From an uncultured Prevotellaceae bacterium (GTDB lineage: Bacteria > Bacteroidota > Bacteroidia > Bacteroidales > Bacteroidaceae), in NCBI GenBank assembly GCA_902769705.1, contig CACXPX010000013.1, positions 34,956-98,955 of the forward strand: 64,000 bases of DNA. The letters are read 5' to 3'. Under the pieces are notes generated by a model. It was not told the origin of the DNA. It saw only the letters and a program-made list of their open reading frames with translations, and made no database searches. This document shows, in pieces, positions 9,073 through 62,514 of the stretch. The position numbers and the translations under genes were made by a program. How positions within the stretch are numbered: position 1 is the stretch's first letter; the number at the start of each line of letters is the position of its first letter.

Positions 9073-9212
9073 CGCGCATGCCACATCTACAGCCAGTACA
9101 TGCCAGTGGTAACACCATTACCAGCCCTTGGTAACACTATTACCAGTCGTTGGTAATAACATTACCAGCCATTGGTAATACTTCTACCAACGGCTGGTAA
9201 TGGTTTTGGTAA
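9073..9212. repeat. 22-bp-period palindromic array, locus A
   Basis: Six units in strict 22-bp register, with 17-bp words at 9074, 9096, 9118, 9140, 9162 and 9184, and a partial unit after that. The core words read TTACCA-GCCCT-TGGTAA, TTACCA-GTCGT-TGGTAA and TTACCA-GCCAT-TGGTAA; the flanking ones are degenerate (GTACAT-GCCAG-TGGTAA, CTACCA-ACGGC-TGGTAA, GCGCAT-GCCAC-ATCTAC). Each word is followed by a 5-base spacer. The array fills the roughly 260-base gap between the stop of the carbohydrate-binding protein gene (9254) and the lipoprotein promoter. Confidence 0.85.
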
Positions 9213-9253
9213 AATGCTCTGATGACTGATGACAGCCGCGCTGTCTGCCCAGA

Positions 9254-11431
9254 TCATTTGGCCGTGAAACTGTAGACTTTGTTGCTGCCCACCGCAGAAG
9301 AGCCGAGATAGAGGCCGTGGAAGGCTGTTGTGGCATCGGTGGGAGCAGTCGTAGACGACCAAATGTTGTAAGTGCCACTCTTCGTCATACCCTTGGCAGT
9401 GATGAACGAAAGAGAGTTGGATACCTTGGCCGCAAAGCTGTAGGTCACAAGATTGTTGCCCGAAGCATCGGCAAGGGTGTAATAGGTGTTGGCGGCATAA
9501 CTACTGGGGCTGGAGAGGAAGGCGTATCCCTGCTTGGCATTCGAGACGGTGCCCGACATGCTGCTTTGCTTTCCGCCAGCACTGATGCCAATTCCTGTGC
9601 CCGTAATCTGGATATAGCTATTGTTGTCACAATCGAAGCCTTCGTCGGGATCGCCCTTTGTCATATAGGCAAACACCACACCATCGCCAATGGTGATGGC
9701 TCCCGTGCTCCCCAAGTTGGAGTCTACGGCATCATTGCCTGTGGAATAGCAGACAGCGACACCACCGTTGAAGACAATCTTACCCGCCGAGTTGATGCAG
9801 TCGTCGTAGCATTGGAAATAATGCTTGCCGCCACGGATGTCGACCGATGTCTTCGACTCAAGACCTTCAGCACCGTTGGTCTTCGTGGTCACGGTGGTTT
9901 CTCCGCCATAAAGGATGATGGCGCAGATGGCCTTGATGGCCTTCGCATCGGAACCCGATTGTCCCATTCCGCCACCGCCGGGCCCCCATCCGCCTCCGCC
10001 AGGTCGGCCTCCACCGCCTCCCGAACTGCCGCTACTGAGCGTGCTGCCCGTGGTGTTCACGGTGAGCGTGGGGCCAGTGCCATCGGCAAGTCCCTGTGTA
10101 TAAGAACCTTTCACGTTCGTGTAGGTTGTTCTGTTCCAACTGGTGGTCTGCGTGCCGCCGCCCACGCGGATGCCCTTGCCGCCCGTTCCACTCATGTTGA
10201 TGGTAATGACGCCAGCATTAAGGGCGATATTGAGGGCTTTCAGACCCTTGGCAGTATAGTTGTCGCTGCTGCCTGTCTGCCCGGCACCACTATTGTTAAT
10301 GGTTTGCGTGCCGCCGTTGATGGTGATGGCATCTTCTGCAGAAACGCCGCGTCCAGCAGTTCCTGTAATGGTCATGGCGATAGTTCCGCCATTCTGTACG
10401 AACGACTGTGCCTTGATGCCTGCCGTGTAAGACGGGTCGCTGGTGTCGGTAAGGTCGATGGCTCCGCTGGCTTTCAGCGTGAGAGTACCATCAGCTACGG
10501 TCACCGTTCCCTCGCTCTTGATGCATTTGGCGGCTTTACCTGTGGCAGTGATGTCGAGCGTTCCACCTTTGATGATGACCTCGCCCGTGTTGTCCTCATC
10601 GTCAGAGATGGGAATAATCTGGTCGTTGTCATCGGTCTTGAAACTCAGCTGGATGCCGTCGTCGCCCACATTCTTGATGGTCACAGCACCACCATTCTGC
10701 TGGAAGAACTGGTTGACGTTGAAACCATCGCCCACAGCACCTAGAATGTTGATGGTGCCAACGGTCTTCTTCAGTTGTACATATTCCTTACCCCAAAAGG
10801 CATGCGCCGTGTTGCCCGTGATGTTCAGCGTGCCGCCACCCTTGAACTCGGTGTGGCCTTTCACGGCAAAGCAAGCTTTCTGCGAACCACCACTTCCGTC
10901 GGTCAGTGTGTTGGTGGTTCCATCGGCCAGTTCCACCGGGATGCGTTTTCCGTCACGAATATTGATGGCAGCGCTATCAGGGTTGTTCAGCGTCAATCCC
11001 TTGAGCACAAACGAAGCCTTGGTCTCTCCGTCCATATAGAACGAGCCATTGGTGGATGTTCCGCTGAGCGTGTAGGTGATTTCATCGGTGACACTGGCAT
11101 CCTGCACAATGCTGACGTGGGCATTGCGAGTCGTGATGGTCAAATATTTCGCAATGTTTCCCGCAACGGTAACGGCAGCACTGGTGCCATTGTAGCTGAC
11201 ATCCACCGTATTGTCAACAACGACAGACTCATCCACATACATGCTTTTCACCTCGCTCAATGCGTAGCTTTTGCCCATGATTTCCACATGAGTGCCGTTG
11301 CTGTAGATCATGTCACCAGCCTGGACAGCAGGAATCTTGTAAGTCACATTCCCCACTTCCACATTCAACGTTTGTGACAAGGATGCAATGGCCACAAGAA
11401 AAGCCGTGAGAAGGAGTGCTATTCTTTTCAT
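9254..11431 (-). CDS. Secreted Cthe_2159-like carbohydrate-binding-domain protein
   Basis: 725 residues. A signal peptide (MKRIALLLTAFLVAIASLSQ) is followed by a short beta domain (about 20-75, ending VKSMYVDES). The remainder consists of long Gly/Thr/Asn-rich repeats (VTIKNVGDDGIQLSF, INGGTQTINNSG, IRGGKHYFQCYDDCINSAG) typical of the Cthe_2159 right-handed beta-helix family, whose founder binds cellulose-type polysaccharides. A Gly-rich linker lies at about 467-490. Its ATG overlaps the stop of the upstream small gene (ATGA), so translation is probably coupled. Its ligand is unknown; homologues often neighbour VTC/DUF4956 genes, which lie 2 kb away here. Confidence 0.82.
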   Translation of the reverse strand: MKRIALLLTAFLVAIASLSQTLNVEVGNVTYKIPAVQAGDMIYSNGTHVEIMGKSYALSEVKSMYVDESVVVDNTVDVSYNGTSAAVTVAGNIAKYLTITTRNAHVSIVQDASVTDEITYTLSGTSTNGSFYMDGETKASFVLKGLTLNNPDSAAINIRDGKRIPVELADGTTNTLTDGSGGSQKACFAVKGHTEFKGGGTLNITGNTAHAFWGKEYVQLKKTVGTINILGAVGDGFNVNQFFQQNGGAVTIKNVGDDGIQLSFKTDDNDQIIPISDDEDNTGEVIIKGGTLDITATGKAAKCIKSEGTVTVADGTLTLKASGAIDLTDTSDPSYTAGIKAQSFVQNGGTIAMTITGTAGRGVSAEDAITINGGTQTINNSGAGQTGSSDNYTAKGLKALNIALNAGVITINMSGTGGKGIRVGGGTQTTSWNRTTYTNVKGSYTQGLADGTGPTLTVNTTGSTLSSGSSGGGGGRPGGGGWGPGGGGMGQSGSDAKAIKAICAIILYGGETTVTTKTNGAEGLESKTSVDIRGGKHYFQCYDDCINSAGKIVFNGGVAVCYSTGNDAVDSNLGSTGAITIGDGVVFAYMTKGDPDEGFDCDNNSYIQITGTGIGISAGGKQSSMSGTVSNAKQGYAFLSSPSSYAANTYYTLADASGNNLVTYSFAAKVSNSLSFITAKGMTKSGTYNIWSSTTAPTDATTAFHGLYLGSSAVGSNKVYSFTAK

Positions 11432-11841
11432 TTGATTGCAATTTTATAGGTTTTGTCACTCTGCTTGACGATATAGACGCCCATCGAGAGCGCTTGTTTG
11501 GCCTGGCTTAGGCTGCTGAATCGCCCCATGTTCACGCCCGCCGTTGTGAAGACCTCCACACCGGCTTCGTCCGCTATAGGTTGGTCTTCCTCAATGTTTG
11601 TGACTGCAGAGTTCGTGAAATACATCTTGTTTAAATCCGAAAGACTGATGGTTTGGTTGGTCTCACTGTTCTCTGCCACCAACTGTCCGTTGGAAAAAGT
11701 AATCTTCAGTTGGCTTACCGAGAATGAAATCTCTTTGCCGTCAACACTTCGGAAGGTGAGATAGGTAAAGTCGCCAGCTTGGGCAAAGTGTACAATAGCT
11801 GCGGAAATAACCAGTGTGATAAGTAGTCTCTTCATACACAT
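11428..11841 (-). CDS. Small secreted protein with Por-type C-terminal tail
   Basis: About 137 residues from MCMKRLL at 11841 (MKRLL at 11835 is the alternative); a longer frame to 11898 would place the start upstream of the -7 element at 11871. A signal peptide is followed by a small beta domain (FTYLTFRSVDGKEISF to LNKMYFTN). The C-terminal ~45 residues (VEVFTTAGVNMGRF to GVYIVKQSDKTYKIAIK) resemble a type IX sorting tail. The stop overlaps the start of the Cthe_2159-like gene (ATGA). The same two-gene layout recurs at 18875-21615. Function unknown. Confidence 0.75.
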   Translation of the reverse strand: MCMKRLLITLVISAAIVHFAQAGDFTYLTFRSVDGKEISFSVSQLKITFSNGQLVAENSETNQTISLSDLNKMYFTNSAVTNIEEDQPIADEAGVEVFTTAGVNMGRFSSLSQAKQALSMGVYIVKQSDKTYKIAIK

Positions 11842-11870
11842 TCGATTGTTAGATAGTATCTTTGATGCTA

Positions 11871-11878
11871 CAAAAGTA
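11871..11878 (-). promoter_or_regulatory. Probable -7 element for the small secreted protein
   Basis: TACTTTTG on the minus strand, 30 bases upstream of the chosen start. The expected TTTG further upstream is not seen; the asd terminator occupies that space. Confidence 0.5.
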
Positions 11879-11879
11879 C

Positions 11880-11921
11880 AAAAAAAATGCCTGTTCACCG
11901 ATATTTTTTCAGCGAACAGGC
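11880..11921 (-). terminator. Rho-independent terminator of asd
   Basis: On the minus strand GCCTGTTCGCTG and CGGTGAACAGGC form a 12-bp stem (two G-U pairs) around a 9-base A-rich loop, followed after one A by eight T residues. It lies 56 bases past the asd stop codon. Confidence 0.9.
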
Positions 11922-11976
11922 AAATAATTTCAGTAAAAAGCGGGGGAAAACCGCTCCCTGTGTATCTGGAAAGGTA

Positions 11977-12987
11977 TTATTTCACATTTCCAACCTTGAT
12001 GAGGTATTCGGCAATCTGCACGGCATTAAGAGCTGCGCCCTTACGGATTTGGTCGCCCGAGAGCCAGAATGTCAGGCCATTGTCGTCTGCAAGGTCCTTG
12101 CGGATGCGACCCACATAGACATCATCCTTGCCTGCAGTCTCAAGCGGCATGGGATAAACCAGGTTCGAGGGGTCGTCCTTCAACGTGCAACCGGGTGCGG
12201 CGGCGATGGCGGCACGAGCCTCCTCGACGCTGAGGGGACGCTCGGTCTCAATCCATACGCTCTCAGAATGGCTGCGCAAAGAGCTCACGCGCACACACAT
12301 AGCTGAGCAACGGGCATCGGTATGCATAATTTTGCGGGTCTCGTTGAACATCTTCATCTCTTCCTTCGTGTAACCGTTATCGGTGAAGACGTCAATCTGC
12401 GGAATCACGTTATAGGCCAACTGATGTGGGAACTTCTTCACCGTGACAGGCTGATTGTTCACCAGTTCGCTGTATTGCTGTTGAAGTTCGGCCATAGCTG
12501 CGGCTCCAGCACCGCTGGCACTCTGATAGCTGGCCACATGGATGCGACGGATGTGGCTCAACTTCTCGAGAGGTTGCAGCACAGTAACCATCATGATGGT
12601 GGTGCAGTTGGGGTTGGCGATGATGCCACGCGGACGGTTCAACGCGTCTTCTGCATTGCACTCGGGCACCACGAGGGGCACATCGTCGTCCATGCGGAAG
12701 GCACTCGAATTGTCGATCATCACCGTGCCAAACTTCGTGATGGTCTCGGCAAACTCCTTGGAGGTGCCACCACCTGCCGACACAAAGGCGATGTCGATGT
12801 CGCGGAAGTCATCGTTGTGCTGCAGAAGTTTCACCTCATAGTCCTTTCCCTTGAATGCATATTTGCGACCGGCACTGCGCTCGCTACCAAAAAGAACCAA
12901 CTCATCCATGGGGAAATCACGCTCGGCGAGAATGCGCAGGAACTCTTGTCCCACAGCTCCGCTCGCACCAACAATTGCTACTTTCAT
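11977..12987 (-). CDS. asd: Aspartate-semialdehyde dehydrogenase
   Basis: 336 residues, normal length. The N-terminal NADP-binding motif is [15 protein letters not shown]; the nucleophile is Cys128 in [20 protein letters not shown] and the late substrate-binding region are present. The enzyme reduces aspartyl phosphate to the semialdehyde, feeding lysine/diaminopimelate, threonine and methionine synthesis in the cytoplasm. It is a single-gene unit with its own promoter (13055-13086) and a strong terminator. Confidence 0.97.
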
Positions 12988-13054
12988 CTTAATAATTCCT
13001 CTTTAAAAATTTATAATAGATGTATACTCAATCACAAAAATCTTTTTTCGGCTG

Positions 13055-13086
13055 CAAAATTACAACTTTTCCCTTGTTTATTCGAA
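13055..13086 (-). promoter_or_regulatory. Promoter of asd
   Basis: TAATTTTG on the minus strand (13062-13055), with TTCG instead of TTTG at 13086-13083 after a 20-base spacer. It lies about 70 bases upstream of the asd start. A degenerate CACCTTTG at 13105-13112 on the + strand may serve the divergent antiporter gene. Confidence 0.55.
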
Positions 13087-13142
13087 TATTTGATATTTTT
13101 TTTGCACCTTTGCATAGCGAATTGCCAAACGAACACATATTT

Positions 13143-15272
13143 ATGCCGAATTTATCCCAATATTTCCCCATTGCCGACCCGACGTTGATTTTCTTCGTGG
13201 TACTGCTGATTATATTGTCGGCTCCTATCATCATGGGAAAACTCCGCATTCCGCACATCATCGGAATGGTGTTGGCGGGTGTCTTGGTGGGACAATATGG
13301 TTTGAATATCTTGGAACGCGACGAGTCGTTCGAACTCTTTGGCAAGGTGGGACTCTACTACATCATGTTCCTGGCCTCGCTCGAGATGGACATGGACGGC
13401 CTGCGCAAGAACGCAAACCGCGCAAGCATCTTCGGACTGCTGACATTCGCCATTCCTTTCGGCGCAATGTTCATCACCGCCATCACCATCTTGGGTTACA
13501 ATGCAAAAACATCGTTCCTACTGGGTGCACTGATGGCATCGAACACGCTGATAGCCTACCCCATCGTGGGCCGGTATGGTCTGCAACGCAAGCCGAGTGT
13601 GACGCTGAGTGTGGGCGGCTCGATGCTCTCGCTGCTGCTGGCGCTCATCTGTTTGGCGGCACTCGAAGCGGCTAACGACGGCAACAGCGGCCTGTTGTTC
13701 TGGGGTTGGTTCGCAGCAAAATTCGTACTGTTCTGCGCCACGCTGTTCTTCCTCATCCCCCGACTGGCCCGATGGTTCCTTCGCCGATATAGCGATGCCG
13801 TCATGCAGTTCATCTTCGTGATGTCGCTGCTCTTCATGAGTGCGGCGCTGAGCGAGGCGGTCGGACTGGAAGGCGTTGTGGGTGCATTCTTGTCAGGTCT
13901 CATCCTCAACCGCTACATCCCTCACGTGTCACCCTTGATGAACCGCATCGAGTTCATCGGCAACGCGCTCTTCATCCCCTACTTCCTCATCGGCGTGGGC
14001 ATGCTCATCAATGTGCGCTTGCTCTTCGAGGGCGGCGCCATCATCTGGATTGTCCTGGCCATGGTGTTTTTCGGCACTTTCGGCAAAGCGGCAGCGGCTT
14101 ATATCGCCAGCTTCTTCTTCCGCATGCCCCTCTCATCGGGTAACATGATGTTCGGTCTGACTTCCGCCCACGCTGCTGGCGCCATCGCCATGGTCATGGT
14201 GGGAATGAACATCAGCACCAGCGACGGTGGATACCTTGTGAACGACGACATCCTGAATGGCGTCATCATCATGATTCTCTTCACGTGCATCATATCGACA
14301 CTTGTGACCGAAGCGGCTGCACAGCAAATCACCATCCGCGACAAAGACATGCCGCGCGAGGACAACAATGCCGAAGGCGATGACGAGAAGATGCTCATCC
14401 CCGTGAAATATCCCGAGTATGCCAACCGTCTCATCAACTTGGCCATACTGACGCGCAATCCGAAGTTGAACAGAGGATTGGTGGCGCTGAATGTGGTTTA
14501 TGACGATGCCAACATGCGGCGCAATCAGGAAAACGGGCAACAACTGCTGGAGAAAGTGACGCAATATGCAGCGGGAAGCGATGTGCGGGTGCAGACACAA
14601 GTGCGCATCGCCGCCAACATTGCCAACGGCATCAAGCATGCCTTCAAGGAGTTCCGCGCCAGCGAAATCATCATCGGCATGCACCAGCACAAAGAGGTGT
14701 CTCCGAAGTTCTGGGGCGAGTTCCACCAAAGCTTGTTCAACGGTTTGAACCGACAGATTATCATGGCACGACTGAAGCAGCCGCTGAACACCATACGGCG
14801 CATTCAAGTGGCTGTGCCGTCGAGAGCCCAATTCGAGCCCGGTTTCTACCGATGGCTGGAACGCCTGTCGCGATTGGCAGAGAATCTGGAGTGCCGCATC
14901 ATCTTCTTCGGACGCAACGACACCATCGAACTCTTACGCGAATATGTGCAGAACCGCCATCAAAGCGTGAGAGCCGAATACAAGCTGATGACGCATTGGA
15001 ACGAACTTCCACAACTGGCTGGCACCATTGCCGAAGACCATCTCTTTGTGGTGGTCACTGCCCGTAAAGGCACTGTCTCCTACAAGACCGCTATGGAACG
15101 CCTGCCCGAGGAGCTGACGCGCCACTTCAGCGGCACAAGCATGATGATTATCTTCCCCGACCAGTTCGGTGACGCTATGGACGAGATGACATTCGCACAA
15201 CCGCAACACACCGAGGAAAAGAGCGCATACGAGATTCTGCGCGACTGGCTGAAACGAAGAATAAAACTCTAA
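13143..15272 (+). CDS. Kef-type (CPA2) cation:proton antiporter with C-terminal USP-like region
   Basis: About 709 residues from the ATG at 13143 (MPNLSQYFPIADPT). An upstream in-frame start at 13020 would add 41 residues unlike the family and overlap the promoter zone. Roughly twelve membrane segments cover the first 400 residues, including the family signature around LEMDMDGLRKNANRAS and GVVGAFLSGLILNRYIP. After about residue 420 the protein is soluble, with universal-stress-protein-like alpha/beta segments (VALNVVYDD, AAGSDVRVQTQVRIA, EIIIGMHQHK). It probably exchanges Na+ or K+ for H+ at the inner membrane. The ion is not readable from the sequence. Confidence 0.9.
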   Translation: MPNLSQYFPIADPTLIFFVVLLIILSAPIIMGKLRIPHIIGMVLAGVLVGQYGLNILERDESFELFGKVGLYYIMFLASLEMDMDGLRKNANRASIFGLLTFAIPFGAMFITAITILGYNAKTSFLLGALMASNTLIAYPIVGRYGLQRKPSVTLSVGGSMLSLLLALICLAALEAANDGNSGLLFWGWFAAKFVLFCATLFFLIPRLARWFLRRYSDAVMQFIFVMSLLFMSAALSEAVGLEGVVGAFLSGLILNRYIPHVSPLMNRIEFIGNALFIPYFLIGVGMLINVRLLFEGGAIIWIVLAMVFFGTFGKAAAAYIASFFFRMPLSSGNMMFGLTSAHAAGAIAMVMVGMNISTSDGGYLVNDDILNGVIIMILFTCIISTLVTEAAAQQITIRDKDMPREDNNAEGDDEKMLIPVKYPEYANRLINLAILTRNPKLNRGLVALNVVYDDANMRRNQENGQQLLEKVTQYAAGSDVRVQTQVRIAANIANGIKHAFKEFRASEIIIGMHQHKEVSPKFWGEFHQSLFNGLNRQIIMARLKQPLNTIRRIQVAVPSRAQFEPGFYRWLERLSRLAENLECRIIFFGRNDTIELLREYVQNRHQSVRAEYKLMTHWNELPQLAGTIAEDHLFVVVTARKGTVSYKTAMERLPEELTRHFSGTSMMIIFPDQFGDAMDEMTFAQPQHTEEKSAYEILRDWLKRRIKL

Positions 15273-15311
15273 CACCCATCACCCATCACCCAATACCCAT
15301 CGCCCAAGAAT
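15273..15311 (+). repeat. 7-bp tandem repeat leader before the LolD-type ATPase
   Basis: Five successive heptamers of the type CCCATCA (CCCATCA, CCCATCA, CCCAATA, CCCATCG, CCCAAGA) fill the gap between the antiporter stop and the ATG. No ribosome-binding purine tract is present. Confidence 0.7.
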
Positions 15312-16070: not shown

Positions 16071-16186
16071 ATTATCAGTTAAGTCGGCAGTTAATTGTAA
16101 AATGTCAATTGTTAATTGTAAATTGTCAATTGCCTCAAGCCGAGCCGCTAATTGTAAATTGTTAATTGTAAATTGTCAATTGTAAA
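16071..16186. repeat. Heptameric AATTGTN repeats before the CvfB-like gene
   Basis: The 116-base gap is almost entirely built of 7-bp steps of AATTGTA, AATTGTC and AATTGTT, interrupted by a GC-rich insert (CCTCAAGCCGAGCCGC). Several steps pair with their own complement (AATTGTC with GACAATT-like neighbours), so the leader could fold. It ends directly at the ATG. Confidence 0.75.
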
Positions 16187-17521: not shown

Positions 17522-17604
17522 ATATACATATCATATAGAAATGGCACATGTGGTGTACACGGTTTGTACATGTGGCATGTACAGTTTGTACATGGGGCTT
17601 GTAC
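17522..17604. repeat. 22-bp-period palindromic array, locus B
   Basis: Three clear 17-bp words in 22-bp register at 17544, 17566 and 17588: GCACAT-GTGGT-GTACAC, GTACAT-GTGGC-ATGTAC and GTACAT-GGGGC-TTGTAC, with a degenerate one at 17522. Spacers are five bases. The array lies between the ompA terminator and the DUF1573 gene; the 238-base gap holds nothing else except those elements. Confidence 0.75.
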
Positions 17605-25600: not shown

Positions 25601-26893
25601 GTACTCGAGAGAGAGCAGGCGTGTAGCCTCAATACCATAGTAGTAGAAGTCGGGCTTGAAGACCAGCGAGCGGAGCTCACCCTTCACCAGCACGTTCAGA
25701 GCGTTAACGAAAGCCTCAACTTTGTCGAGCTTGTCAGAAACAGCCTGCAAAGAAGTCTCAACGTCATCGATTCTCTTGTCGAGACGAGCAACCTCAGTGG
25801 TCAGAGTGCTCTGGAGAGATTCAATTGACTTCTGAAGAGCATCCTTGGCATCCTTAATGGCCTGCTCAAGTTCACCGTCCTTAGCCTTACGGGCAGCCTC
25901 TTCAGCAGAGATAGCAGCCTTACGGGCAGCCTCTTCAGCAGAGATAGCAGCCTTACGGGCAGCCTCTTCAGCTGTAACAGCAGAAGCAGCAGCGTCGGCA
26001 GCACCCTGAGCGGCGTCGGCAGCATCCTGAGCGTCCTTAGCAGCCTTAGCAGCATTCTTAGCGACCTCAAGAACGGCAGCGTCGCCATCCTCACGGAGCT
26101 TAGCCTCATTCTCAACAAGACCCTTCAACTCAGCAACAACAGCGTCGATGCCGAGCTTGTCGATACGATCGTTGACCTTCTTGAGGTCTTCCTTCAGGCC
26201 ATCGATAACACCGTTAATCTCAGTCTTGAGAGCGGCAATCTTATCGTCAACCTTCAGAGCTGCGATAGCGTCCTTCAAAGCCTGGTTGGTGACATAATCC
26301 TTCTCGATAGCAGCGATCTTGTCTTTCCAAGTCTGGAGGGCGTCGAGCTGCTGCTGCAGGTCTTTCACGGCAGCCTCACGAAGAGCCTTCTCATCATCGA
26401 TACCCTTCTGGAGAGCACCAAACTGCTCAACAGCCTTCTGCATGTGGTCAGCAAGTTTGCCGTCAACAGCAGCAATGGCAGCATAGATCTTAGTAACCTC
26501 ATCATTGAAGTCCGTCTTATCTACCTTACCATCAGCCAGCTTCTGGAGAGCATCAAGAGCCTCCTGAGCTGTACCCAGCTTAGCCTCGAGAGCAGCCTCG
26601 GCAGCTGTAGCGCGAGCGATTTCGTCAGCCAGCTTGCCAGCGTTTTCGTCTGCAGCCTTCTTGGCATTCTCGGCAATAGTCTTGATTTCAGCGTCCTTAG
26701 CCTCAAGCTGCGACTTCAAGTTAGCGATCTCAGCCTGGAGATCAGACTTCACTTGATTGATCGCAGGAGTAAGCGCGTTGATCTGAGTCTGCAAGTCCTG
26801 GATTTCATCATCGTAGTCCTTACAAGACGTCAAGTTTGCTGAAGCCACGATAAGGGCTCCGAGCATCAAAGAACTTAAAAATTTTCTTTTCAT
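22643..26893 (-). CDS. Large coiled-coil surface lipoprotein
   Basis: 1416 residues from the ATG at 26893 (MKRKFLSSLMLGALIVASANLTSC); upstream in-frame codons to 27097 cross the promoter and are not used. Cys24 is the lipidation site. Residues ~30-390 form an Ala/Lys/Glu-rich heptad coiled coil (LQTQINALTPAINQVKSDLQ, AEIANLKSQLEAKDAEI), with three exact 11-residue repeats (SAEEAARKAAI). The C-terminal ~1000 residues are beta-rich without a recognised family. Such proteins are common in Prevotella and are presumed to project from the surface. The promoter is consensus, so strong expression is plausible. Confidence 0.85.
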   Translation of the reverse strand: MKRKFLSSLMLGALIVASANLTSCKDYDDEIQDLQTQINALTPAINQVKSDLQAEIANLKSQLEAKDAEIKTIAENAKKAADENAGKLADEIARATAAEAALEAKLGTAQEALDALQKLADGKVDKTDFNDEVTKIYAAIAAVDGKLADHMQKAVEQFGALQKGIDDEKALREAAVKDLQQQLDALQTWKDKIAAIEKDYVTNQALKDAIAALKVDDKIAALKTEINGVIDGLKEDLKKVNDRIDKLGIDAVVAELKGLVENEAKLREDGDAAVLEVAKNAAKAAKDAQDAADAAQGAADAAASAVTAEEAARKAAISAEEAARKAAISAEEAARKAKDGELEQAIKDAKDALQKSIESLQSTLTTEVARLDKRIDDVETSLQAVSDKLDKVEAFVNALNVLVKGELRSLVFKPDFYYYGIEATRLLSLEYYHFVDDAKKGTPIPAANADLAEKKGTTIDHKNSKEANVDFAAQDVARTIHERYDSLKAFKVLNLVAQYHMNPSNVSKESILDVSVIDDDKPYEVDPEDTRSSKAVVSVNKALETPYWVENGMLNVNLKVRDQEKIKSVYWNDSVTVFAIKATVRSGEKGDTTITSDYAALKYQQIKDVRLAHAIVNTKTPESITMTGLLNTHCGTCDLVAKYNKKEIDMNHSHLFATVDEAKYFVDNTPRVKDNILGEGQDTVDWNATLDLSKLVEVHYTTVDGAHEKMSAENLAKYGLEYKFELTKFIIGTNTTSESAQAAINPEDGITLRPQMPEKNTGKAQAYGAEQSRTTIDRVPLVRVSLIEKTTGHILDYGYIPVRISETGVPPVETPGVSVTYTSTDKWSYTQYDDCFGAGSTAYGRKTTWIETQYDLMKHDALPESFSREDFEKNYLDQDGNAGPLYQDPALAEGSTLTANPDEAQQYILVKGKWTAVKNISEKIGTITYLPDEDLNGVRTSVFEWKVNADEAIELFKKNKEVQVACLLKSQNYAYPDIFVIFKSDPNNIAFLKATVTGEVDFDAHKISNYWFTLNSNAIQGDGGNREIHAQTLVPEDFFEKTADPFDTQLADVFVGNFKNDAVKPNMWIDITTMVDGKKVNNNKAYNKENIQTDFVFESSKQIGTFKGYYKTPNKTTSFKLFASDLDVAEVNKIKTVTDPQLKQGKNLYAYVTSPLDAQLIATIEGEDLETMKVALVHSEDNNGYVEAMLNYKAHNELADDVLKAEVSLIAWIDKPKEGAIETADQSDICLIPLKNNSILVRFLRPINVSGAGKDVEDASYAHGDAPQEILLDDLLAYTDWRDTWKDEVTDEETGETTGLSYKTFYGIQSVKLQGVESGNNVSTNPDVQTTLNQTKIEDGKKVWNGKWVTMSEVSDNVDFVYVEEDGVSKLIYRNLSNVVDEFKVQLPVSVEYLWGTVYQNVVVTVKPSTSQAKKF
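25885..25983 (-). repeat. Three 33-bp tandem repeats inside the coiled-coil gene
   Basis: Copies start at 25885, 25918 and 25951 and are nearly identical at base level; the first two encode an 11-residue coiled-coil step (A-EEAARKAAI-S) and the third runs into KDGELEQ. Identity at the base level points to recent duplication and possible length variation between strains. Confidence 0.85.
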
Positions 26894-28771: not shown

Positions 28772-30223
28772 TTACTCAAAAGCTCCCATACGAAGGATTT
28801 CGACTTCCTTTTCGGTGAGGAAGCGCCAGTCACCACGACGGAGGTTCTTCTTGGTGAGTCCGGCAAAGAGGACGCGGTCGAGCTTAGTGACGCGATAGCC
28901 GAGGCTCTCGAAGATGCGGCGCACGATGCGGTTCTTGCCGCTGTGGATCTCGATGCCTACCTGAGACTTGTCGTGCTCGTCGCAATACTCTACAGCGTCG
29001 GCATGCACCTCACCGTCTTCGAGCTGAATGCCCTCTGCAATCTGCTGGAGATCGTGAGCGGTGACATTCTTGTCGAGATGCACGTGATAGACCTTCTTCT
29101 TGAGGAACTTGGGATGAGTGAGCTTGGAAGCCAAGTCACCATCGTTGGTGAGCAGCAGGACGCCCGTAGTGTTGCGGTCGAGACGACCTACGGGATAGAT
29201 GCGCTCAGGGCATGCATCTTTAACGAGGTCCATAACGGTCTTGCGCTGCTGAGGATCGTCGCTCGTGGTGACATAGTCCTTGGGTTTGTTGAGCAGCACG
29301 TAAACCTTCTTCTCCAAAGTGACGGGCTCGTTGTGGAACATCACGGCATCAGTGCGCAGAACTTTCGTTCCGAGTTCGGTCACAACTTCACCATTGACGG
29401 TGACGACGCCTGCCTGGATGAACTCATCGGCCTCGCGACGCGAGCAAACGCCAGCATTGGCGAGGAACTTGTTCAAGCGGATGGGCTCGTTGGGATCGAT
29501 GTTCTCCTCTTTGTATTCAATACGTTTCTTGAGACTGTATTTTGCATTGGGGTCGTAGTCGGCTGTGCGCGGACGATAGCCACCCTGCGGGCGCTGGCCG
29601 TAGCCACCACGCTGCTGATAGCCGCCACCTTGAGGACGCTGTCCGTAGCCACCACGCTGCTGATAGCCACCCTGGGGACGGGGTTTGTAGCCACCACGCT
29701 GCTGATAACCGCCTTGGGGACGGGGCTGATAGCCACCCTGCTCGCCGTCGGCATTGTAACGCGGACGATAGCCTTGCTGACGGGGCTGATAGCCTCCTTG
29801 CTCGCCTTCGGCATTGTAGCGCGGGCGATAGCCTTGGGGACGGGGCTGATAACCGCCCTGCTCGCCATCGGCATTATAACGCGGACGATAGCCTTGCTGA
29901 CGGGGCTGATAGCCTCCCTGAGGACGCTGACCGTAACCACCACCTTGCTGATTGTTGTTGAAACGAGGACGATAGGGGCGCTGCTGGGGCGTAGCGGACT
30001 GGAGTCCGGCTCCGAAGCCTTCGGGGCGGAATGCACCACCATCATCGGAAGCCGAGGAACGCTCGGCATTGAAAGGACGTTGCGTATGGATACGCGGACG
30101 CTGGGGACGGCCCCCGGCACGATAATCACGTTGATAGTTGCCTACCGGCTTGTAGCCCTCGCGGCCACCTTCGTTCTGCTCGGCAGACGAATCCTGAGTC
30201 TTGTTTTCGAATTCTGAATCCAT
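28772..30223 (-). CDS. RluB/RsuA-type rRNA pseudouridine synthase with Arg/Gly-rich N-terminal extension
   Basis: 483 residues. The first ~235 residues are low complexity, rich in Gly, Gln, Arg, Tyr and Pro, with several near-identical 20-residue steps such as GYRPRYNADGEQGGYQPR. An S4 RNA-binding domain follows (IRLNKFLANAGVCSRREADEFI). The catalytic domain has the Asp of GRLDRNTTGVLLLTNDG and the late KNRIVRRIFESLGY motif. It isomerises a uridine in rRNA. Bacteroidales homologues often carry such tails; a role in RNA binding or condensate formation is inference. The repeats are a likely site of length variation. Confidence 0.92.
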   Translation of the reverse strand: MDSEFENKTQDSSAEQNEGGREGYKPVGNYQRDYRAGGRPQRPRIHTQRPFNAERSSASDDGGAFRPEGFGAGLQSATPQQRPYRPRFNNNQQGGGYGQRPQGGYQPRQQGYRPRYNADGEQGGYQPRPQGYRPRYNAEGEQGGYQPRQQGYRPRYNADGEQGGYQPRPQGGYQQRGGYKPRPQGGYQQRGGYGQRPQGGGYQQRGGYGQRPQGGYRPRTADYDPNAKYSLKKRIEYKEENIDPNEPIRLNKFLANAGVCSRREADEFIQAGVVTVNGEVVTELGTKVLRTDAVMFHNEPVTLEKKVYVLLNKPKDYVTTSDDPQQRKTVMDLVKDACPERIYPVGRLDRNTTGVLLLTNDGDLASKLTHPKFLKKKVYHVHLDKNVTAHDLQQIAEGIQLEDGEVHADAVEYCDEHDKSQVGIEIHSGKNRIVRRIFESLGYRVTKLDRVLFAGLTKKNLRRGDWRFLTEKEVEILRMGAFE

Positions 30224-32009: not shown

Positions 32010-32205
32010 GAAAAATGTCATTTTTCAGAAGTCGTTGATAGCCAAAGACTTCCGATTCTTTTACATTTTTGCAGATGATGAAAACAGCGTTTTTGCATTG
32101 TCACTTGTGGCATCTGAGGCTGTCACACATAAGATATAAGAGCGTCAGATGTTACAAGTAGCAGCGTCAGATGCCACATGTGACGCCCTCAGATGCCACA
32201 AGTGA
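32010..32205. repeat. 22-bp-period palindromic array, locus C
   Basis: Five 17-bp words in exact register at 32101, 32123, 32145, 32167 and 32189, including TCACTT-GTGGC-ATCTGA, TCAGAT-GCCAC-ATGTGA and TCAGAT-GCCAC-AAGTGA; the last is the reverse complement of the first. Upstream, GAAAAA-TGTCA-TTTTTC (32010), TCGTTG-ATAGC-CAAAGA (32032) and TGAAAA-CAGCG-TTTTTG (32079) follow the same 6-5-6 plan with one 3-base slip between 32048 and 32079. The array sits in the ~550-base gap between the ACT gene terminator and the purB promoter; apart from these elements I see no gene there. Confidence 0.85.
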
Positions 32206-44295: not shown

Positions 44296-44510
44296 CGTTT
44301 TGCCACACCTGACAAAACCAAAGCATACACCTGACGTCGCCACTTGTATCCTCTTGTGTTGTCATTCGTATCCTTTGATCTAGTAAAATAAATTAATTTG
44401 CAAAGTAAAATAAATTATTTTGCTGTGTAAAATAAATTATTTTACCGACCAAAATAAATTATTTTACCACACCATATGTGGCATCTCGCTATTTCATATG
44501 CCGTCAATGA
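44296..44510. repeat. 22-bp-period palindromic array, locus D
   Basis: Ten 17-bp words in unbroken 22-bp register at 44296, 44318, 44340, 44362, 44384, 44406, 44428, 44450, 44472 and 44494. Four central words are TAAAAT-AAATT-ATTTTA or one to three changes from it; others are TCATTC-GTATC-CTTTGA (44362), CCATAT-GTGGC-ATCTCG (44472) and TCATAT-GCCGT-CAATGA (44494). Thus the word changes while the register does not. The array fills the 360-base gap between guaB and the TonB-C gene; no gene is seen there. Confidence 0.88.
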
Positions 44511-44546
44511 GCTCATCACAACATAAGAGCCTTCTTGAGAGAGTGC

Positions 44547-54322: not shown

Positions 54323-54427
54323 TCATTGATGGCTTTTGACAACGCCATTTGTGGCTTTTGACCGTCTCATTTGTGGTCTTTGACAGCGTCATTTGTGGCC
54401 TTTGACAAAGTCATTTGCGGCCTTTAA
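54323..54427. repeat. 22-bp-period array, locus E
   Basis: Five 17-bp words in exact 22-bp register at 54323, 54345, 54367, 54389 and 54411: TCATTG-ATGGC-TTTTGA, CCATTT-GTGGC-TTTTGA, TCATTT-GTGGT-CTTTGA, TCATTT-GTGGC-CTTTGA and TCATTT-GCGGC-CTTTAA. Arms are only partly inverted (TCA...TGA). The array lies in the 340-base gap between tig and lptB; nothing else but the tig promoter is seen there. Confidence 0.85.
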
Positions 54428-55493: not shown

Positions 55494-55519
55494 CAACCAA
55501 CAAACCTACCAACAAGATT

Positions 55520-57093: not shown

Positions 57094-57104
57094 AATAAAA
57101 CAAC

Positions 57105-57140
57105 AATCCGATGGAGCGAGTTGCTTCATCGGATTTCTTT
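57105..57140 (+). terminator. Terminator of the MlaEF operon
   Basis: AATCCGATGGAGC and GCTTCATCGGATT form a 13-bp stem (one G-U) with loop GAGTT, followed by T-rich sequence, shortly after the stop codon. Confidence 0.85.
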
Positions 57141-57184
57141 TATTTACCAAGTGGCATTTTTCATTATTGCGATGAATGTCATTC

Positions 57185-57571: not shown

Positions 57572-58884
57572 TATTTCTGACGTATGAATACGTTAATCGG
57601 GCATCCTGTCATCGGCCAATTCTCGCGTATCTTGTTTTCCAAGAAACGGCGATAATTCTCTTTCACATACTGCGGCAAGTTGGCATAGAACACGAAAGTG
57701 GGTATCTGTGTATTAGGCACCTGCGAGCAGTACTTGATTTTTATGTACTTGCCTTTGATGCTGGGGGGAGGAGTTGCTTCGATGATGGGAAGCATCACTT
57801 CGTTAAGTTTCGTAGTTCCTACCTTTGCCGTACGGTTCAAATAAACCTGCTTGGCGGTTTCGAGAACTTTGAAGATGCGTTGCTTGGTCAAAGCTGAAGC
57901 GAAAATAATGGGGAAGTCGGTAAACGGAGCCATTCGATCACGGATGGCATTCTCGAATGTTTTAATGGCAATAGGCGACTTGTCTTCCACAAGGTCCCAC
58001 TTGTTGACAACCACCACTATCGACTTATTGTTCTTCTGAATAATCTGGAAGATGTTCATGTCTTGCGCCTCAATGCCACGCGTGGCGTCAATCATCAAAA
58101 TACAGACATCTGAGTTCTCGATGGCACGGATGGAACGCATCACCGAATAGAACTCCAAGTCTTCCGTCACCTTGTTTTTGCGGCGTATGCCTGCTGTGTC
58201 AACCAAATAGAAATCAAAGCCAAACTTGTCGTAACGAGTATAGATACTGTCGCGTGTGGTGCCTGCAATCTCGGTCACAATATTGCGTTCTTCGCCGATG
58301 AAGGCATTGATGATACTCGACTTGCCTGCGTTCGGACGACCTACAACTGCAAAACGGGGAATGCCGTCTTCCACACTCTCTTCACTTGTAGATGGAAGTT
58401 TCCCAACCACAATGTCCAACAAGTCGCCCGTACCGCTACCCGTCACCGAACTGATGCACTGAGGTTCGCCCAAGCCAAGCTTATAAAACTCATACGAATC
58501 GTAAATCTGAGCATTGTTGTCGGCCTTGTTCGCCACCAATATCACAGGCAACTTTGAGCGGCGCAGTATCTGTGCCACATCCTCATCGAGGTCGGTTAAT
58601 CCTGTTGTAACATCGACAAGAAACAACACAAGATCGGCTTCTTCTGTAGCCAAAAGCACTTGCTTGCGAATTTCCTCTTCGAAAATGTCATCACTGTTGA
58701 CTACCCAGCCACCAGTATCGACCACAGAAAACTCCCGCCCACACCATTCGCATTTGCCATATTGGCGGTCGCGCGTGGTACCTGCTTCAGCGCTCACGAT
58801 GGCTTGACGAGTTTTGGTCAGCCTATTGAACAGTGTGGACTTACCCACGTTAGGGCGTCCTACGATTGCTACTAAATTTCCCAT
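57571..58884 (-). CDS. der: Ribosome-biogenesis GTPase Der
   Basis: 437 residues, two GTPase domains: [14 protein letters not shown] (about 8-21) with NKADNN, and [14 protein letters not shown] with NKWDLVE, each with a DTGGW/DTAGI switch 2, then a C-terminal KH-like domain. Der helps 50S assembly. It sits in the chain era, small secreted protein, der, lipoprotein; both its ends overlap neighbours by one base (TAATG). Confidence 0.97.
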
Positions 58885-59300
58885 TAATAACTTTGCATCA
58901 ATTCAAAATGAAACTTCTCACCTTTTCTATTCGTAAAGGTTCCCTCATATCCATCGCCTCGCAACTCACGCTGACCGTTAAACGTGCCAGTATGATTGCC
59001 TTTAGGCGAGTATTCTTTGAGTACCAGATGCATAGAGCCTTTGGCATTAATTGCCGCATATTCCACCAGTCGCAGAGTAAAACGGCTCTTCGGGCGGTCA
59101 TTATAATAATAGTAACCCACCTCAGCATCCTCATCGGCATATTCCAGATTCACAAAGAGCGTAATAGCATACGGACCTATCTTTCCCGTAAACTTCTCAT
59201 ATTTCACGTCCTGCTCCTTTTGTGCCATTGCTGAAAAAGCGCCTAACACAAATAGCAGACAACACATTAATGTCTTAACTCCGTAACGCCTCAACTCCAT
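58884..59300 (-). CDS. Small secreted protein, unknown
   Basis: 138 residues. Signal peptide [27 protein letters not shown]; the mature domain has [27 protein letters not shown], read as successive beta strands, and [20 protein letters not shown] near the end, which looks like a small lipocalin-type or calycin-type barrel by strand pattern only. No family is claimed. It lies between era and der with an overlap at its stop. Confidence 0.75.
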
Positions 59301-59317
59301 AATCGGCCTCCTTTCAA

Positions 59318-60199
59318 TTATTCCGGATTATATCCAAACGAATCCAATTCCTTTTGTGACGAACGCCAATCCTTGTCAACCTTGACAAAGGTTTCCAGAT
59401 TGATTTTCTTACCAAAGAATTTCTCCAGAGCCTTACGGCTTTCCATTCCCACCTTCTTCAAAGCTACGCCCTGATGTCCGATGATGATGCCTTTCTGGCT
59501 CTCGCGTTCCACATAGATAACTGCATGGATGTCAATGCGGTCCTTGCTCTCTTTAAACGAGTCAACTCTCACCTCCACAGCATAGGGAACTTCTTTATCG
59601 TAATAAAGCAGTATCTTCTCACGGATAATCTCGCTCACGAAAAAACGTGCAGGCTTGTCAGTCAACTGGTCTTTGTCGAAATAGGGCGGCGAGTCGGGCA
59701 GCAATTCCTTGATGCGTTTCAGTAGCATGTCTATCCCGAACTTGTTGCCTGCCGATATAGGTAGTATCTCTGCATTAGGCAAGAGCGAGTGCCACTTCTC
59801 CACAAGGTCGCCAAGCACCTTCTGGTCGCTCAGGTCAATCTTGTTGATAAGCAGAAGGACTGGAATCGTCATCTTCGCCACTTTCTCCAAGAAATCCATG
59901 TTCTTCTGCGGGTCTTCCACCACATCAGTGACATAGAGCAGCACATCAGCATCAGCCAACGCACTCTCCGAGAACGCCAGCATCATCTCCTGCATCTTGT
60001 AGTTGGGCTTCAACACACCCGGCGTATCGCTGAACACAATCTGCATGTCATCGGTGTTCACGATGCCCATAATGCGATGACGAGTAGTTTGTGCTTTGAA
60101 CGTAGCAATCGAGATGCGCTCACCCACGAGTTGGTTCATCAGCGTGGACTTGCCGACATTCGGATTACCAACGATGTTTACAAAACCTGCTTTGTGCAT
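59318..60199 (-). CDS. era: GTPase Era
   Basis: 293 residues. G1 [17 protein letters not shown]3 DTPGVLKP, G4 NKIDLSDQ, and a C-terminal KH domain (QKGIIIGHQGVALKKVGMESRKALEKFF, in parts IIGHQGVALKKVGMESRKAL). It helps 30S assembly. It lies 159 bases downstream of fabH, a gap in which I see no clear promoter or repeat. Confidence 0.97.
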   Translation of the reverse strand: MHKAGFVNIVGNPNVGKSTLMNQLVGERISIATFKAQTTRHRIMGIVNTDDMQIVFSDTPGVLKPNYKMQEMMLAFSESALADADVLLYVTDVVEDPQKNMDFLEKVAKMTIPVLLLINKIDLSDQKVLGDLVEKWHSLLPNAEILPISAGNKFGIDMLLKRIKELLPDSPPYFDKDQLTDKPARFFVSEIIREKILLYYDKEVPYAVEVRVDSFKESKDRIDIHAVIYVERESQKGIIIGHQGVALKKVGMESRKALEKFFGKKINLETFVKVDKDWRSSQKELDSFGYNPE

Positions 60200-60358
60200 A
60201 TTCGATATGTTTTGAAGTCAATGGGTATGAAACGAAATTCAAGAGCCGAAAAGCCACAGAAGTTCACACATGCCAGCACCTTCCATCATAATGTATCAAG
60301 GCGCGAAGACCATGCAAGAACTACTGTAACTCCCTCGACTCCTGAACCTCTAAATCTC

Positions 60359-61378
60359 TTACTTTCTTGCCGCAGCCGCAGCGCCGTCATAAGCCCATTT
60401 GCAGAGCGAAGCACCGTGGGTGAAGCCAGCGCCGAACGCGGTTAGCACCACGTTGTCGCCCTTCTTGAAATTCGCCTCATTGTCCCACATAGCAAGTGGG
60501 ATGGTGGCGCCACTCGTGTTGCCGTATCGTTGGATGTTGACAACAATCTTCTCCATCGGCAGATTCACGCGCTTGGCAACGGCTTCGATGATGCGAAGGT
60601 TAGCCTCGTGAGGCACCACCCAATTCACATCTTCGTTAGTCAAACCGTTGCGATTCAGTATTTCCGCCACATCGTCACCCATACTGGTCACAGCATAGCG
60701 GAACACCGTGCGGCCTTCCTGATAGATGTAGTGCAGACGATGGTCGACCGTGAAATGGGAAGGAGGACAAACCGACCCGCCCGCTTTCATGTGAAGGAAA
60801 GGCAAGCCTTTGCCGTCAGTACGGAAGAAAGCATCTTGCAAACCAACACCTTCTTCCTCTGTACCCTCCACAAGCACAGCACCGGCACCATCGCCGAAAA
60901 GCACACAAGTCTGCCGGTCGGTGTAATCCACCATCGACGACATCTTGTCGGCGCCAATGACAATGATACGTTTGCATCTGCCGCACTTAATCATCGATGC
61001 GGCAAGGTCAAGCGCATACATGAATCCGGCGCAAGCTGCCGATGTGTCGAAAGCAAACGCGTTCTTCAAGCCCAACTTGCCCACCACGATAGACGATGTG
61101 GGTGGGAACTTGTAGTCGGGAGTGGTTGTCGCAACAATTAATGCATCAATGGTATCGGGGTCGACGCCTGTCTTGCGAAGCAACAGTTTGGCTGCCTTAC
61201 GAGCCATATAGCTCGTGCCAAGTCCTTCTTCCGTCAAGATATGGCGTTCCTTGATGCCCACACGCGTCATGATCCACTCGTCGTTGGTGTCAACCATGCG
61301 AGCCAACTCCTCATTGGTGAGAATATAGTCGGGCACGTATCCACCTACGCCAGTGATTATCGCGTTAATCTTTCCCAT
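60359..61378 (-). CDS. fabH: Beta-ketoacyl-ACP synthase III
   Basis: 339 residues. Catalytic triad: Cys116 in DTSAACAGFMYAL, His in VVPHEANLRII, Asn in YGNTSGATIPLAM. It starts fatty acid synthesis by condensing acetyl-CoA with malonyl-ACP. The gene begins four bases after rpmF, the widespread DUF177-rpmF-fabH order. Confidence 0.97.
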   Translation of the reverse strand: MGKINAIITGVGGYVPDYILTNEELARMVDTNDEWIMTRVGIKERHILTEEGLGTSYMARKAAKLLLRKTGVDPDTIDALIVATTTPDYKFPPTSSIVVGKLGLKNAFAFDTSAACAGFMYALDLAASMIKCGRCKRIIVIGADKMSSMVDYTDRQTCVLFGDGAGAVLVEGTEEEGVGLQDAFFRTDGKGLPFLHMKAGGSVCPPSHFTVDHRLHYIYQEGRTVFRYAVTSMGDDVAEILNRNGLTNEDVNWVVPHEANLRIIEAVAKRVNLPMEKIVVNIQRYGNTSGATIPLAMWDNEANFKKGDNVVLTAFGAGFTHGASLCKWAYDGAAAAARK

Positions 61379-61381
61379 TGA

Positions 61382-61567
61382 TTACTCTGCAACTTCCTGA
61401 ACGATAGCGACTTTTCCTCTGTAGTAACCACAAGAGGGGCATACTGTGTGATAGACATAATATGCGCCACAGTTGGGGCAAACTGCCAGCGTGGGAGCCA
61501 CTGCCTTGTCATGCGTTCTTCTTTTAAGTGTACGAGTCTTCGACTGTCTTCTTTTAGGATGTGCCAT
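61382..61567 (-). CDS. rpmF: 50S ribosomal protein L32
   Basis: 61 residues, AHPKRRQSKTRTLKRR at the N-terminus and a zinc ribbon with CPNCGAYY and CPSCGYYRG. Length and position between DUF177 and fabH are canonical. Confidence 0.97.
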   Translation of the reverse strand: MAHPKRRQSKTRTLKRRTHDKAVAPTLAVCPNCGAYYVYHTVCPSCGYYRGKVAIVQEVAE

Positions 61568-61609
61568 AATACTTTTATATTTTAATGTTTATTATTTAAT
61601 CTTTGACCG

Positions 61610-62140
61610 TTATTTATCCATTTTCAACCCTTTTAGCGCCTCCCAGCGCGGATCCACAGGTTCATCCTCCTCATTCGCATTGTTGCGGGTGGCGTCGAGT
61701 TCTTCCAACATCTTCGTCATCGCAGGATTGCATTCACCTGGGGCATGAACATGCTTGATGGGAATATCAAGGGCTATAAACTCATAAATCACCCACGACG
61801 TGTCGAGCATTCCGTCTGCTTCATCCACCGTCACGAGTTCATCGTCCATGCTGTATTCCTCTGTGCCCAAACGCGCAACCAAATGGTTCTTGACGTCAAT
61901 GGGCTGTTCCATATCGTCCAAACACAGGTCGCAAGGCACATGAACCGTCCCCACACAATGGAAATCCAGCTCAAACAAGTCACCTCTCCTCTTCACGTCG
62001 AGGTCTACATGCACTTCGCCACGTTCCACTTCTGGGGCATCGACCGCCTTAAAGTAATCGTCATTCAAATCGAACTGGAAATGAGTCGTTCCCTCTTCCA
62101 GTCGTTTCAGATTCAGCTGTAAGGTATCCAATGTACACAT
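61610..62140 (-). CDS. DUF177 (YceD-like) protein
   Basis: About 176 residues from the ATG at 62140 (MCTLDTLQLNLKRLEEG). The longer frame to 62176 begins upstream of the -7 element at 62149-62156, so it cannot be used from this promoter. The DUF177 hallmark CDLCLDD is present, with the acidic C-terminal part (DPRWEALKGL). Members accumulate in a complex with 23S rRNA in other bacteria. It opens the unit with rpmF and fabH; the leader is only a few bases. Confidence 0.9.
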   Translation of the reverse strand: MCTLDTLQLNLKRLEEGTTHFQFDLNDDYFKAVDAPEVERGEVHVDLDVKRRGDLFELDFHCVGTVHVPCDLCLDDMEQPIDVKNHLVARLGTEEYSMDDELVTVDEADGMLDTSWVIYEFIALDIPIKHVHAPGECNPAMTKMLEELDATRNNANEEDEPVDPRWEALKGLKMDK

Positions 62141-62148
62141 TTGGGGTG

Positions 62149-62179
62149 CAAAGTTACGAATAAACGAGCAAACCACAAA
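62149..62179 (-). promoter_or_regulatory. Promoter of the DUF177-rpmF-fabH unit
   Basis: Minus strand TTTG (62179-62176), 19 bases, TAACTTTG (62156-62149). It decides the DUF177 start. An 18-base palindrome (AGAAAACA and TGTTTTCT around AC, 62209-62226) lies upstream and might be an operator. Confidence 0.75.
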
Positions 62180-62277
62180 ATAAAATCGGTTTTATTTTCC
62201 ATTTTCCGAGAAAACAACTGTTTTCTTTTCACCTTATTCTATAATAAAAAAGCGAGGTAATGATAATCTGAAAAGCC

Positions 62278-62514
62278 TCATTTGCCATTACAAAACGCGC
62301 CAAAAACATGGAGTATTGGAGTCAAAGCTATCATCTTGTGAAGTGAAACGAATGATCTGGTAAAGTAAAATAAATTAATTTACCGACTAAAATAAATTAT
62401 TTTACACAACAAAATAAATTATTTTACTGAGCAAAATAAATTATTTTACAACGTCAAAGCTATGCTTTTACGATTTCATATGTAGCATATGAGAGGCTCA
62501 GAGCTATCGTTTAA
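62278..62514. repeat. 22-bp-period palindromic array, locus F
   Basis: Eleven words in 22-bp register at 62278, 62300, 62322, 62344, 62366, 62388, 62410, 62432, 62454, 62476 and 62498. Four are TAAAAT-AAATT-ATTTTA or one to three changes from it, the same word as in locus D. Others include TCAAAG-CTATC-ATCTTG (62322), TCAAAG-CTATG-CTTTTA (62454, same word 132 = 6 x 22 bases later) and the perfect palindrome TCATAT-GTAGC-ATATGA (62476). The last unit runs into the kinase stop codon. The ~360-base gap holds only this array and the DUF177 promoter. Confidence 0.88.

Follow-up and report, generated by a model that had tools for sequence, protein, structure and literature searches.

Intergenic arrays with a fixed 22-bp spacing and species-specific words in an uncultured Prevotellaceae bacterium and its genus

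Introduction

Phage lambda-type operator clusters and plasmid iterons are rows of 17-bp dyad sites or iterated sites that lie about two helical turns apart and are bound cooperatively, and they occupy one or a few loci beside a regulator gene. The arrays that we describe here come from a stretch of 64,000 nucleotides (the window) of an uncultured Prevotellaceae bacterium (contig CACXPX010000013.1 of assembly GCA_902769705.1) and also consist of 17-bp words, set every 22 bp with 5-bp spacers between them. Unlike those operators and iterons, they are dispersed, with roughly 150-200 intergenic array sites per genome, and they fall into several word classes. An earlier note on the window had marked six such arrays, A to F.

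The PINSR repeat of Prevotella intermedia is a 188-bp intergenic and probably non-coding repeat with 177-184 copies per genome. It lacks terminal inverted repeats and is limited in its range of species, about three quarters of its sites are common to two strains, and the available part of its description treats it as a lineage-specific repeat, with no 22-bp lattice and no relatives outside its group (PMC4755523). BrickBuilt of Porphyromonas gingivalis resembles the present arrays in being a dispersed intergenic element of the Bacteroidales, with a short tandem unit of variable number between a leader and a tail, but its unit is 23 nt without spacers, it occupies 19 loci, it has terminal inverted repeats like those of ISPg1/ISPg9, and no dyad lattice or dialects are reported in the accessible portion of that paper (PMC4596501). 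Repetitive extragenic palindromes (REPs) are likewise high-copy, with species-specific words and with alternating orientation in bacterial interspersed mosaic elements (BIMEs), but according to the excerpted text they are GTAG-tagged and accompanied by a cognate tyrosine transposase (PMC2817692), the REP-associated tyrosine transposase (RAYT), which was not found here. In the literature on Prevotella, of which subscription papers lay mostly outside our coverage, we found no description of a 22-bp lattice, and the available part of PMC5771137 contains no 22-bp term.

Results

The genome that contains the window (G000, hereafter the own genome) comprises 3.6 Mb in 72 contigs and is 99.4% complete. 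As a sister species we used Prevotella sp. RGIG7546 (G299), the nearest named record found, which shares synteny with the window, at a DNA identity of about 80-86%. A genus set of 17 members (755 kb) was made up of ten genomes sampled at fixed coordinates (400 kb) and seven near relatives (355 kb), and all comparisons used one genome per species. We employed a lag scan that is free of any word, in which each base is compared with the base 22 further on within a sliding window of 40 bp. The threshold was at least 31 matches in 40 for the 64-kb window and 30 in 40 for the genus set, where it gives 30 arrays (a looser 29 in 40 gives 34). First-order Markov sequences without N served as controls for each DNA set. 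The own sample of 464 kb includes 320 kb of contigs C1 and C2 that are unselected with respect to arrays; the remainder is biased, being the window, which was given beforehand, or D-word neighbourhoods (three C3 stretches and one C10 stretch that adjoin known D words).

In the window, lag 22 gives exactly six regions and lag 44 gives four, all among those six, and every other lag from 4 to 60 gives 0-1 regions. On reading the gaps we confirmed all six arrays at the positions marked earlier, with the words that had been quoted for them; Tandem Repeats Finder assigns period 22 to five of them and misses locus C. The 464 kb of the own genome hold 26 arrays at lag 22, 19 at lag 44 and 8 at lag 66, the next-highest lags being 7 (9 regions) and 14 (4), and a BrickBuilt-like lag of 23 gives 0 regions. 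The unselected 320 kb alone contain 14 lag-22 arrays, and it is this figure, scaled to 3.6 Mb, that yields the rough estimate of 150-200 sites. There are 16 such arrays in 389 kb of G299, 11 in the ten genus genomes and 19 in the seven near relatives, with at least one array in 13 of the 17 genus members, and the Markov control of every DNA set has 0 lag-22 regions. The earlier note would have given up its proposal if the signal were no stronger than in shuffled DNA; the arrays lie far above that level. Its proposal that geometry is conserved while words differ holds both within the genome and across the genus. The arrays are thus a real, ordered and genus-wide feature of intergenic DNA, with a fixed spacing and with words that each species spells in its own way.

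Beyond the genus, 343 kb from other families of the order contain 4 lag-22 arrays (and 5 at lag 66), two of which are palindromic arrays in one genome, G397. Further stretches of G397 bring its total to 4 arrays in 80 kb at a looser threshold, and 80 kb of G355, from the same family and a different genus, contain none. The G397 arrays suggest that the 22-bp lattice may extend beyond one genus. Its stretches L259-L261 carry 22-bp arrays with unrelated words, one of them clearly palindromic (TGGCACAGCTGTGCCA). Lags at multiples of 7 form a second, separate periodic series that is strong in several near relatives; AATTGTA heptamer arrays occur in the window at 16090-16186.

The words themselves fall into a few genome-wide families. 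The earlier note was thus right that they differ, and its picture of one word per locus does not hold. The D word TAAAATAAATTATTTTA has 68 exact copies in the own genome and one copy in one of 149 other genus members. The C/E word TCARARGCCACAARTGA has 253 own copies at one mismatch or fewer, with 1 in the control. The A family reads TGGTAA-N5-TTACCA and the B family GTACAW-N5-WTGTAC. Other species use the same period with different words, such as TAAAATAGGCTATTTTA, CAAAACAAGTTGTTTTG and CAAAATAAGTTGATTTG, so that the words are species dialects on one common lattice. A pattern of three TCA cells matches 313 times per strand in the own genome and 0 times in 107 further genomes of the order, of which one belongs to the same family and none to the same genus, with 0 in the control. 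E-class words have also shifted between species, the CCACA type numbering 253 in the own genome and 99 in G299 and the CATAGC type 73 and 139. Because C/E and CATAGC words have only 0-3 copies in eight other genus members, this TCA-lattice dialect is local.

For the D arrays we examined 44 own elements that have at least two words (at two mismatches or fewer) and full flanks. The core holds four words in 32 of the 44 and two, three or five in the others, and all 121 successive core spacings are exactly 22 bp. On both sides of the core the same grid continues in outer cells with the consensus YCANWNS-NNN-SNWNTGR: A at position 3 and T at position 15 are in phase in 245 of 264 outer cells, as against at most 34 of 264 at the 22 other shifts. 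This signal weakens past three cells per side, so that a D element consists of about three outer, four core and three outer cells, some 220 bp in all. The 5-bp spacers in the D core are not free: only 21 of 512 strand-canonical 5-mers are used among 121 own spacers. All 13 spacers in another genome, G028, and 14 of 25 in G299 belong to the same set of 21. The consensus spacers on the left (tgttg/tgtag) and right (caaca/ctaca) are reverse complements. The D core of G028 (10 elements) has about three cells and, by eye, no comparable outer lattice.

Next, we considered the symmetry of the words, which the earlier note had read as 6-bp arms inverted around a 5-bp centre. This reading stands for A, B, D and F and is weak for C and E, where the dyad is mainly TCA...TGA. 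In a dyad test at p ≤ 0.05, 36 of 63 lag-22 arrays pass (13 of 26 own arrays, 16 of 30 from the genus and all 7 from named records); within the window E fails (p 0.72) and C is marginal (p 0.055). At other periods 2 of 19 arrays pass for lag 14, 4 of 15 for lag 21, 1 of 9 for lag 24, 6 of 11 for lag 28 and 2 of 10 for lag 35. The marks of an operator array, namely dyad sites, helical phasing and constrained half-sites, are all present in the D cores with their outer cells, and the dyad is weak in the C/E class.

Inverted arms can serve either a protein dimer on DNA or a hairpin in RNA, and the earlier note had left both open. Strings of RNA hairpins acting in transcripts as terminators or stabilisers would draw on the 6-7-bp stems that A and D words can form. 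To compare the two we used 245 outer words (the 264 minus 19 that lack A3/T15) and scored symmetric positions against shuffles, positions 3/15 being fixed by the filter. The z values are -1.7 for pair 1/17, -0.1 for 2/16, 0.5 for 4/14, -3.0 for 5/13, 0.7 for 6/12, 2.1 for 7/11 and -2.7 for 8/10, and compensatory covariation of the arms is thus not found in these words (z -3.0 to 2.1). Since pairing does not exceed that in shuffles, the two half-sites vary independently of each other about a dyad consensus, which is how the half-sites of binding proteins behave. Searches of five DNA sources, the window among them, with Rfam covariance models match only tRNA and 5S rRNA and nothing at the arrays, which sets aside a known structured RNA. 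The arrays also lack the repeat layout of a CRISPR (clustered regularly interspaced short palindromic repeats) array: the words are 17 bp long with 5-bp spacers of small vocabulary, not unique spacers of about 30 bp.

The position of the arrays between genes bears on the same question. None of the 26 own arrays lies inside an open reading frame (ORF) as called by a simple ORF caller; 14 are in co-directional, 7 in divergent and 5 in convergent gaps. We sampled 72 gaps of at least 200 bp, some of them from the window or from D-word neighbourhoods, and 24 hold arrays: 12 of 40 tandem, 7 of 20 divergent and 5 of 12 convergent gaps. No preference for gene orientation is evident. The proposal that every array lies between the 3′ end of one gene and the promoter side of the next therefore fails, locus C itself lying between convergent genes, and the presence of arrays in all gap orientations argues against a terminator- or promoter-specific role. 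With no orientation preference, no covariation and no Rfam match, we regard hairpin strings as very improbable and favour rows of protein dimers, which also fit the arms held between species and the half-site lattice kept through an exchange of A and B words, as described below.

The comparison with G299 shows what changes at a given place and what stays. We tested 61 own arrays, and for 13 of them both flanks lay in sampled G299 DNA. Five of these gaps have D elements in both species and two have C or E types in both; two hold own D composites against TCAAAGCATAGC-type arrays in G299 (C2:101263 and window F, where G299 has TCAAAGCATAGCTTTGA-type words instead); one holds own A against a B type (window A); one has no such array in G299 (window B); and two are clean absences (C2:56947 and C2:115442). 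Nine of the gaps were derived from synteny: six with an array, one without and two absences. In the window A gap, G299 has a B-type array (GTACAT..) and the own bases upstream retain, by eye, a B remnant, GTACATGCC; the A half-sites lie on the same 11-bp lattice as the retained B half-site, with the first of them at the right distance (by eye). In the window E gap G299 has E-type words in the opposite orientation.

The five D pairs were compared word by word. Over 18 words, arms differ at 2 of 216 positions, centres at 32 of 54, word edges at 4 of 36 and spacers at 24 of 65, in a set of which four pairs entered the sample solely through a retrieval of G299 loci that carry exact-arm D words, and in which two loci lack one unit, so that their last three words were paired. 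At the ortholog of window D, the G299 array is shorter by one unit; it retains the CAAAG and CCGAC spacers, and its centres are AAC/GAC. All 68 exact-arm words of the own genome have AAT/ATT centres; the 18 of G299 have GAC/GTC (9), GAT/ATC (7) or AAT/ATT (2); and the 36 of G028 have GCC/GGC (34), ACC/GGT (1) or GAC/GTC (1). Exact-arm D words give 0 matches in G172, G006, G200 and G047. Because G028 and G299 have mostly G at position 8, the A-N-T centre is probably derived in the own lineage, by a symmetric change at positions 8 and 10. About 1.6 kb of the own genome that includes a D array (C2:83603-85222) has no match at G299 C38:69017-69052, and G299 C35:35744-35920 matches the array region of that stretch at 78%, with own-type centres.

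These pairs also bear on neutral minisatellites that arise by slippage or unequal crossing-over. Whole units do vary, with D cores of two, three, four or five words and two orthologous arrays one unit apart, as slippage would have it. Yet at these selected loci arms and spacers diverge very differently, most D cores have exactly four words, and period 22 is kept from dialect to dialect and in one genome from a different family. We consider neutral minisatellites improbable.

Some of the arrays sit in larger repeated units. The C/E arrays lie centrally in a dispersed element, about 390 bp long, whose leader and tail are conserved, as seen in nine aligned copies that were chosen by the CTTTACAT leader motif, whose own conservation is thus by construction. 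A BLAST search with one C/E element gives 27-35 matches over self background on the same 400 bp, some at overlapping loci. In 7 of the 9 copies (by eye; e.g. C1:150553 of the own genome) the leader carries an imperfect hairpin of the GGAAGTCGTTGA..TCAACGACTTCC type followed by a T-rich run, which is terminator-like and is the other feature that a hairpin reading can draw on. The A arrays have flanks common to three loci.

Such units are what one would expect of non-autonomous mobile elements, similar to miniature inverted-repeat transposable elements and to BrickBuilt, in which the lattice would be an internal repeat or a recombinase-binding part and the dialects successive bursts. The two clean absences among 13 orthologous gaps and a high-copy element of about 190-210 bp in another genus member, G084, point the same way. 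Against this, by eye we see no terminal inverted repeats or target duplications at the nine C/E copies and two clean absences, where no systematic search for ends was made. Outside the lattice, the flanks of D elements are not conserved, and the D arrays of G028 stand alone with about three words. At five orthologous loci the D words change and the outer cells and many spacers stay, which re-insertion would not give. The genome has no match to a Y1 transposase, the only transposase family searched. Mobile elements are a possible explanation of the arrays as a whole, though we think it somewhat unlikely.

The same transposase search speaks to REP/BIME elements driven by RAYT. The arrays are intergenic, high-copy, palindromic, alternating and species-specific, like REPs. 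However, PF01797 (Y1_Tnp) has 0 matches in the own genome and matches 5 of 14 control genomes, the words have by eye no GTAG/CGTC foot, and the arms do not covary. For the own genome this explanation is largely refuted, and we hold it to be extremely unlikely overall.

The G084 element also suggests a described relative. In this genome (two contigs, 2.7 Mb) it consists of 22-bp cells (TTTTGCA..GCAAAAG), and the pattern matches 236 times forward and 257 times in reverse, with several matches per element and some perhaps on both strands. Stretches L098-L099, L264 and L266-L269 of G084 carry it. It is like PINSR in size and copy number, the two properties compared, and by this analogy PINSR is probably one dialect of the 22-bp lattice. 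The earlier statement that no named repeat family has this grammar is then probably only partly right. In 21 kb, the record of Hoylesella pleuritidis JCM 14110 contains two lag-22 arrays whose words are its own; in the PCR (polymerase chain reaction) survey of PINSR, lane 19 is P. pleuritidis, and that survey reports PINSR in four other species only (PMC4755523).

Within the window, array A (9107..9211, plus strand) has five TGGTAA-N5-TTACCA words at 9107, 9129, 9151, 9173 and 9195, the last degenerate. Array B (17544..17604, minus strand) has GTACAT-GTGGC-ATGTAC at 17566 and 17588 and a degenerate word at 17544. Array C (32101..32205, plus) has five TCAGATGCCACAAGTGA-type cells at 32101, 32123, 32145, 32167 and 32189 within a dispersed C/E element, and the DNA upstream (about 32010-32080) resembles the leader of that element by eye. 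The words given earlier for D and F were right, and both arrays are cores of longer composites with flanking cells on the same grid. Array D (plus) has three in-phase left outer cells of TCA..TGA type, partly degenerate (44318..44383), a core (44384..44466) with TAAAATAAATTATTTTA-type words at 44384, 44406, 44428 and 44450, and right outer cells (44472..44532) at 44472, 44494 and 44516. Array F (plus) has degenerate left outer cells (62300..62365), a core (62366..62448) with four words of the same type at 62366, 62388, 62410 and 62432, and right outer cells (62454..62514) at 62454, 62476 and 62498. Array E (54323..54427, minus) has five TCAAAGGCCACAAATGA-type words at 54323, 54345, 54367, 54389 and 54411. 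Elsewhere in the window, tandem repeats of 33, 21, 42 and 60 bp lie in long ORFs at 25883-26044 and 29575-29930, presumably encoding repetitive proteins, and a 5S rRNA gene at 63905-64000 is truncated by the window edge.

Discussion

The explanation to which we give an even chance is that each array is a row of binding sites for dimeric proteins and that dispersed elements carry some of these rows. This explanation starts from a 22-bp lattice that is genome- and genus-wide and exact in phase, from arms that are held and do not covary, and from centres that have changed in concert at orthologous loci; the protein partner, the cooperativity and the co-evolution are what we infer. In this explanation the 17-bp dyad sites every 22 bp would be recognition lattices on double-stranded DNA. 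Half-sites would come every 11 bp, about one helical turn, in alternating orientation, so that adjacent dimers could line up along the same face of the helix. Binding would probably be cooperative and involve several related dimeric proteins, possibly a separate one for each word class, and the bound arrays would be nucleoprotein platforms at intergenic sites. As the specificity of the partner drifts between species, words would change in concert genome-wide and spacing and often position would persist. The role would be one at the level of the chromosome (nucleoid organisation or insulation) rather than that of one regulon.

Several points weigh against rows of protein sites. No binding protein was found, in a protein search limited to PF01797. 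Of the 63 lag-22 arrays 27 fail the dyad test, the E class above all, and lag-28 arrays pass as often, so dyad symmetry is not special to lag 22. The small shared spacer vocabulary of the D cores is not needed for a plain spacer. The selection of D pairs lowers the figure for arm differences, missing units raise that for spacers, and D elements share ancestry, so that locus counts are not independent. The AAT centre could come in part from a C-to-T/G-to-A mutation bias. The genus count includes a few simple or possibly coding repeats (e.g. L125 and L106). Given two clean absences and one gap without an array in G299, none of the arrays is shown to be required where it lies.

Protein lattices best account for the constraint, the phase, the missing covariation and the concerted change, and mobile or copied dispersal accounts for presence and absence; both may apply. 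A wider possibility, which we put forward only tentatively, is a genus-wide recognition code. Dimeric DNA-binding proteins of one fast-diverging family would co-evolve with their sites, which would number hundreds to thousands per genome and lie on an unvarying lattice of 22 bp (11 bp between half-sites). Each species would have a dialect of its own, PINSR being one, and a whole chromosome would switch words in concert. If true, such a code would be a bacterial counterpart of runaway co-evolution between proteins and satellites.

If rows of protein sites are the right explanation, a third of the larger gaps sampled (24 of 72) share one architectural grammar, which is invisible to word-based repeat searches because each species spells it differently. 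The lattice would then probably unite the orphan repeat PINSR with many unseen relatives. D words that differ between sister species mainly at the centre, at the same loci, would offer a natural experiment in protein-DNA co-evolution, and the question of which protein organises these chromosomes becomes a testable one.

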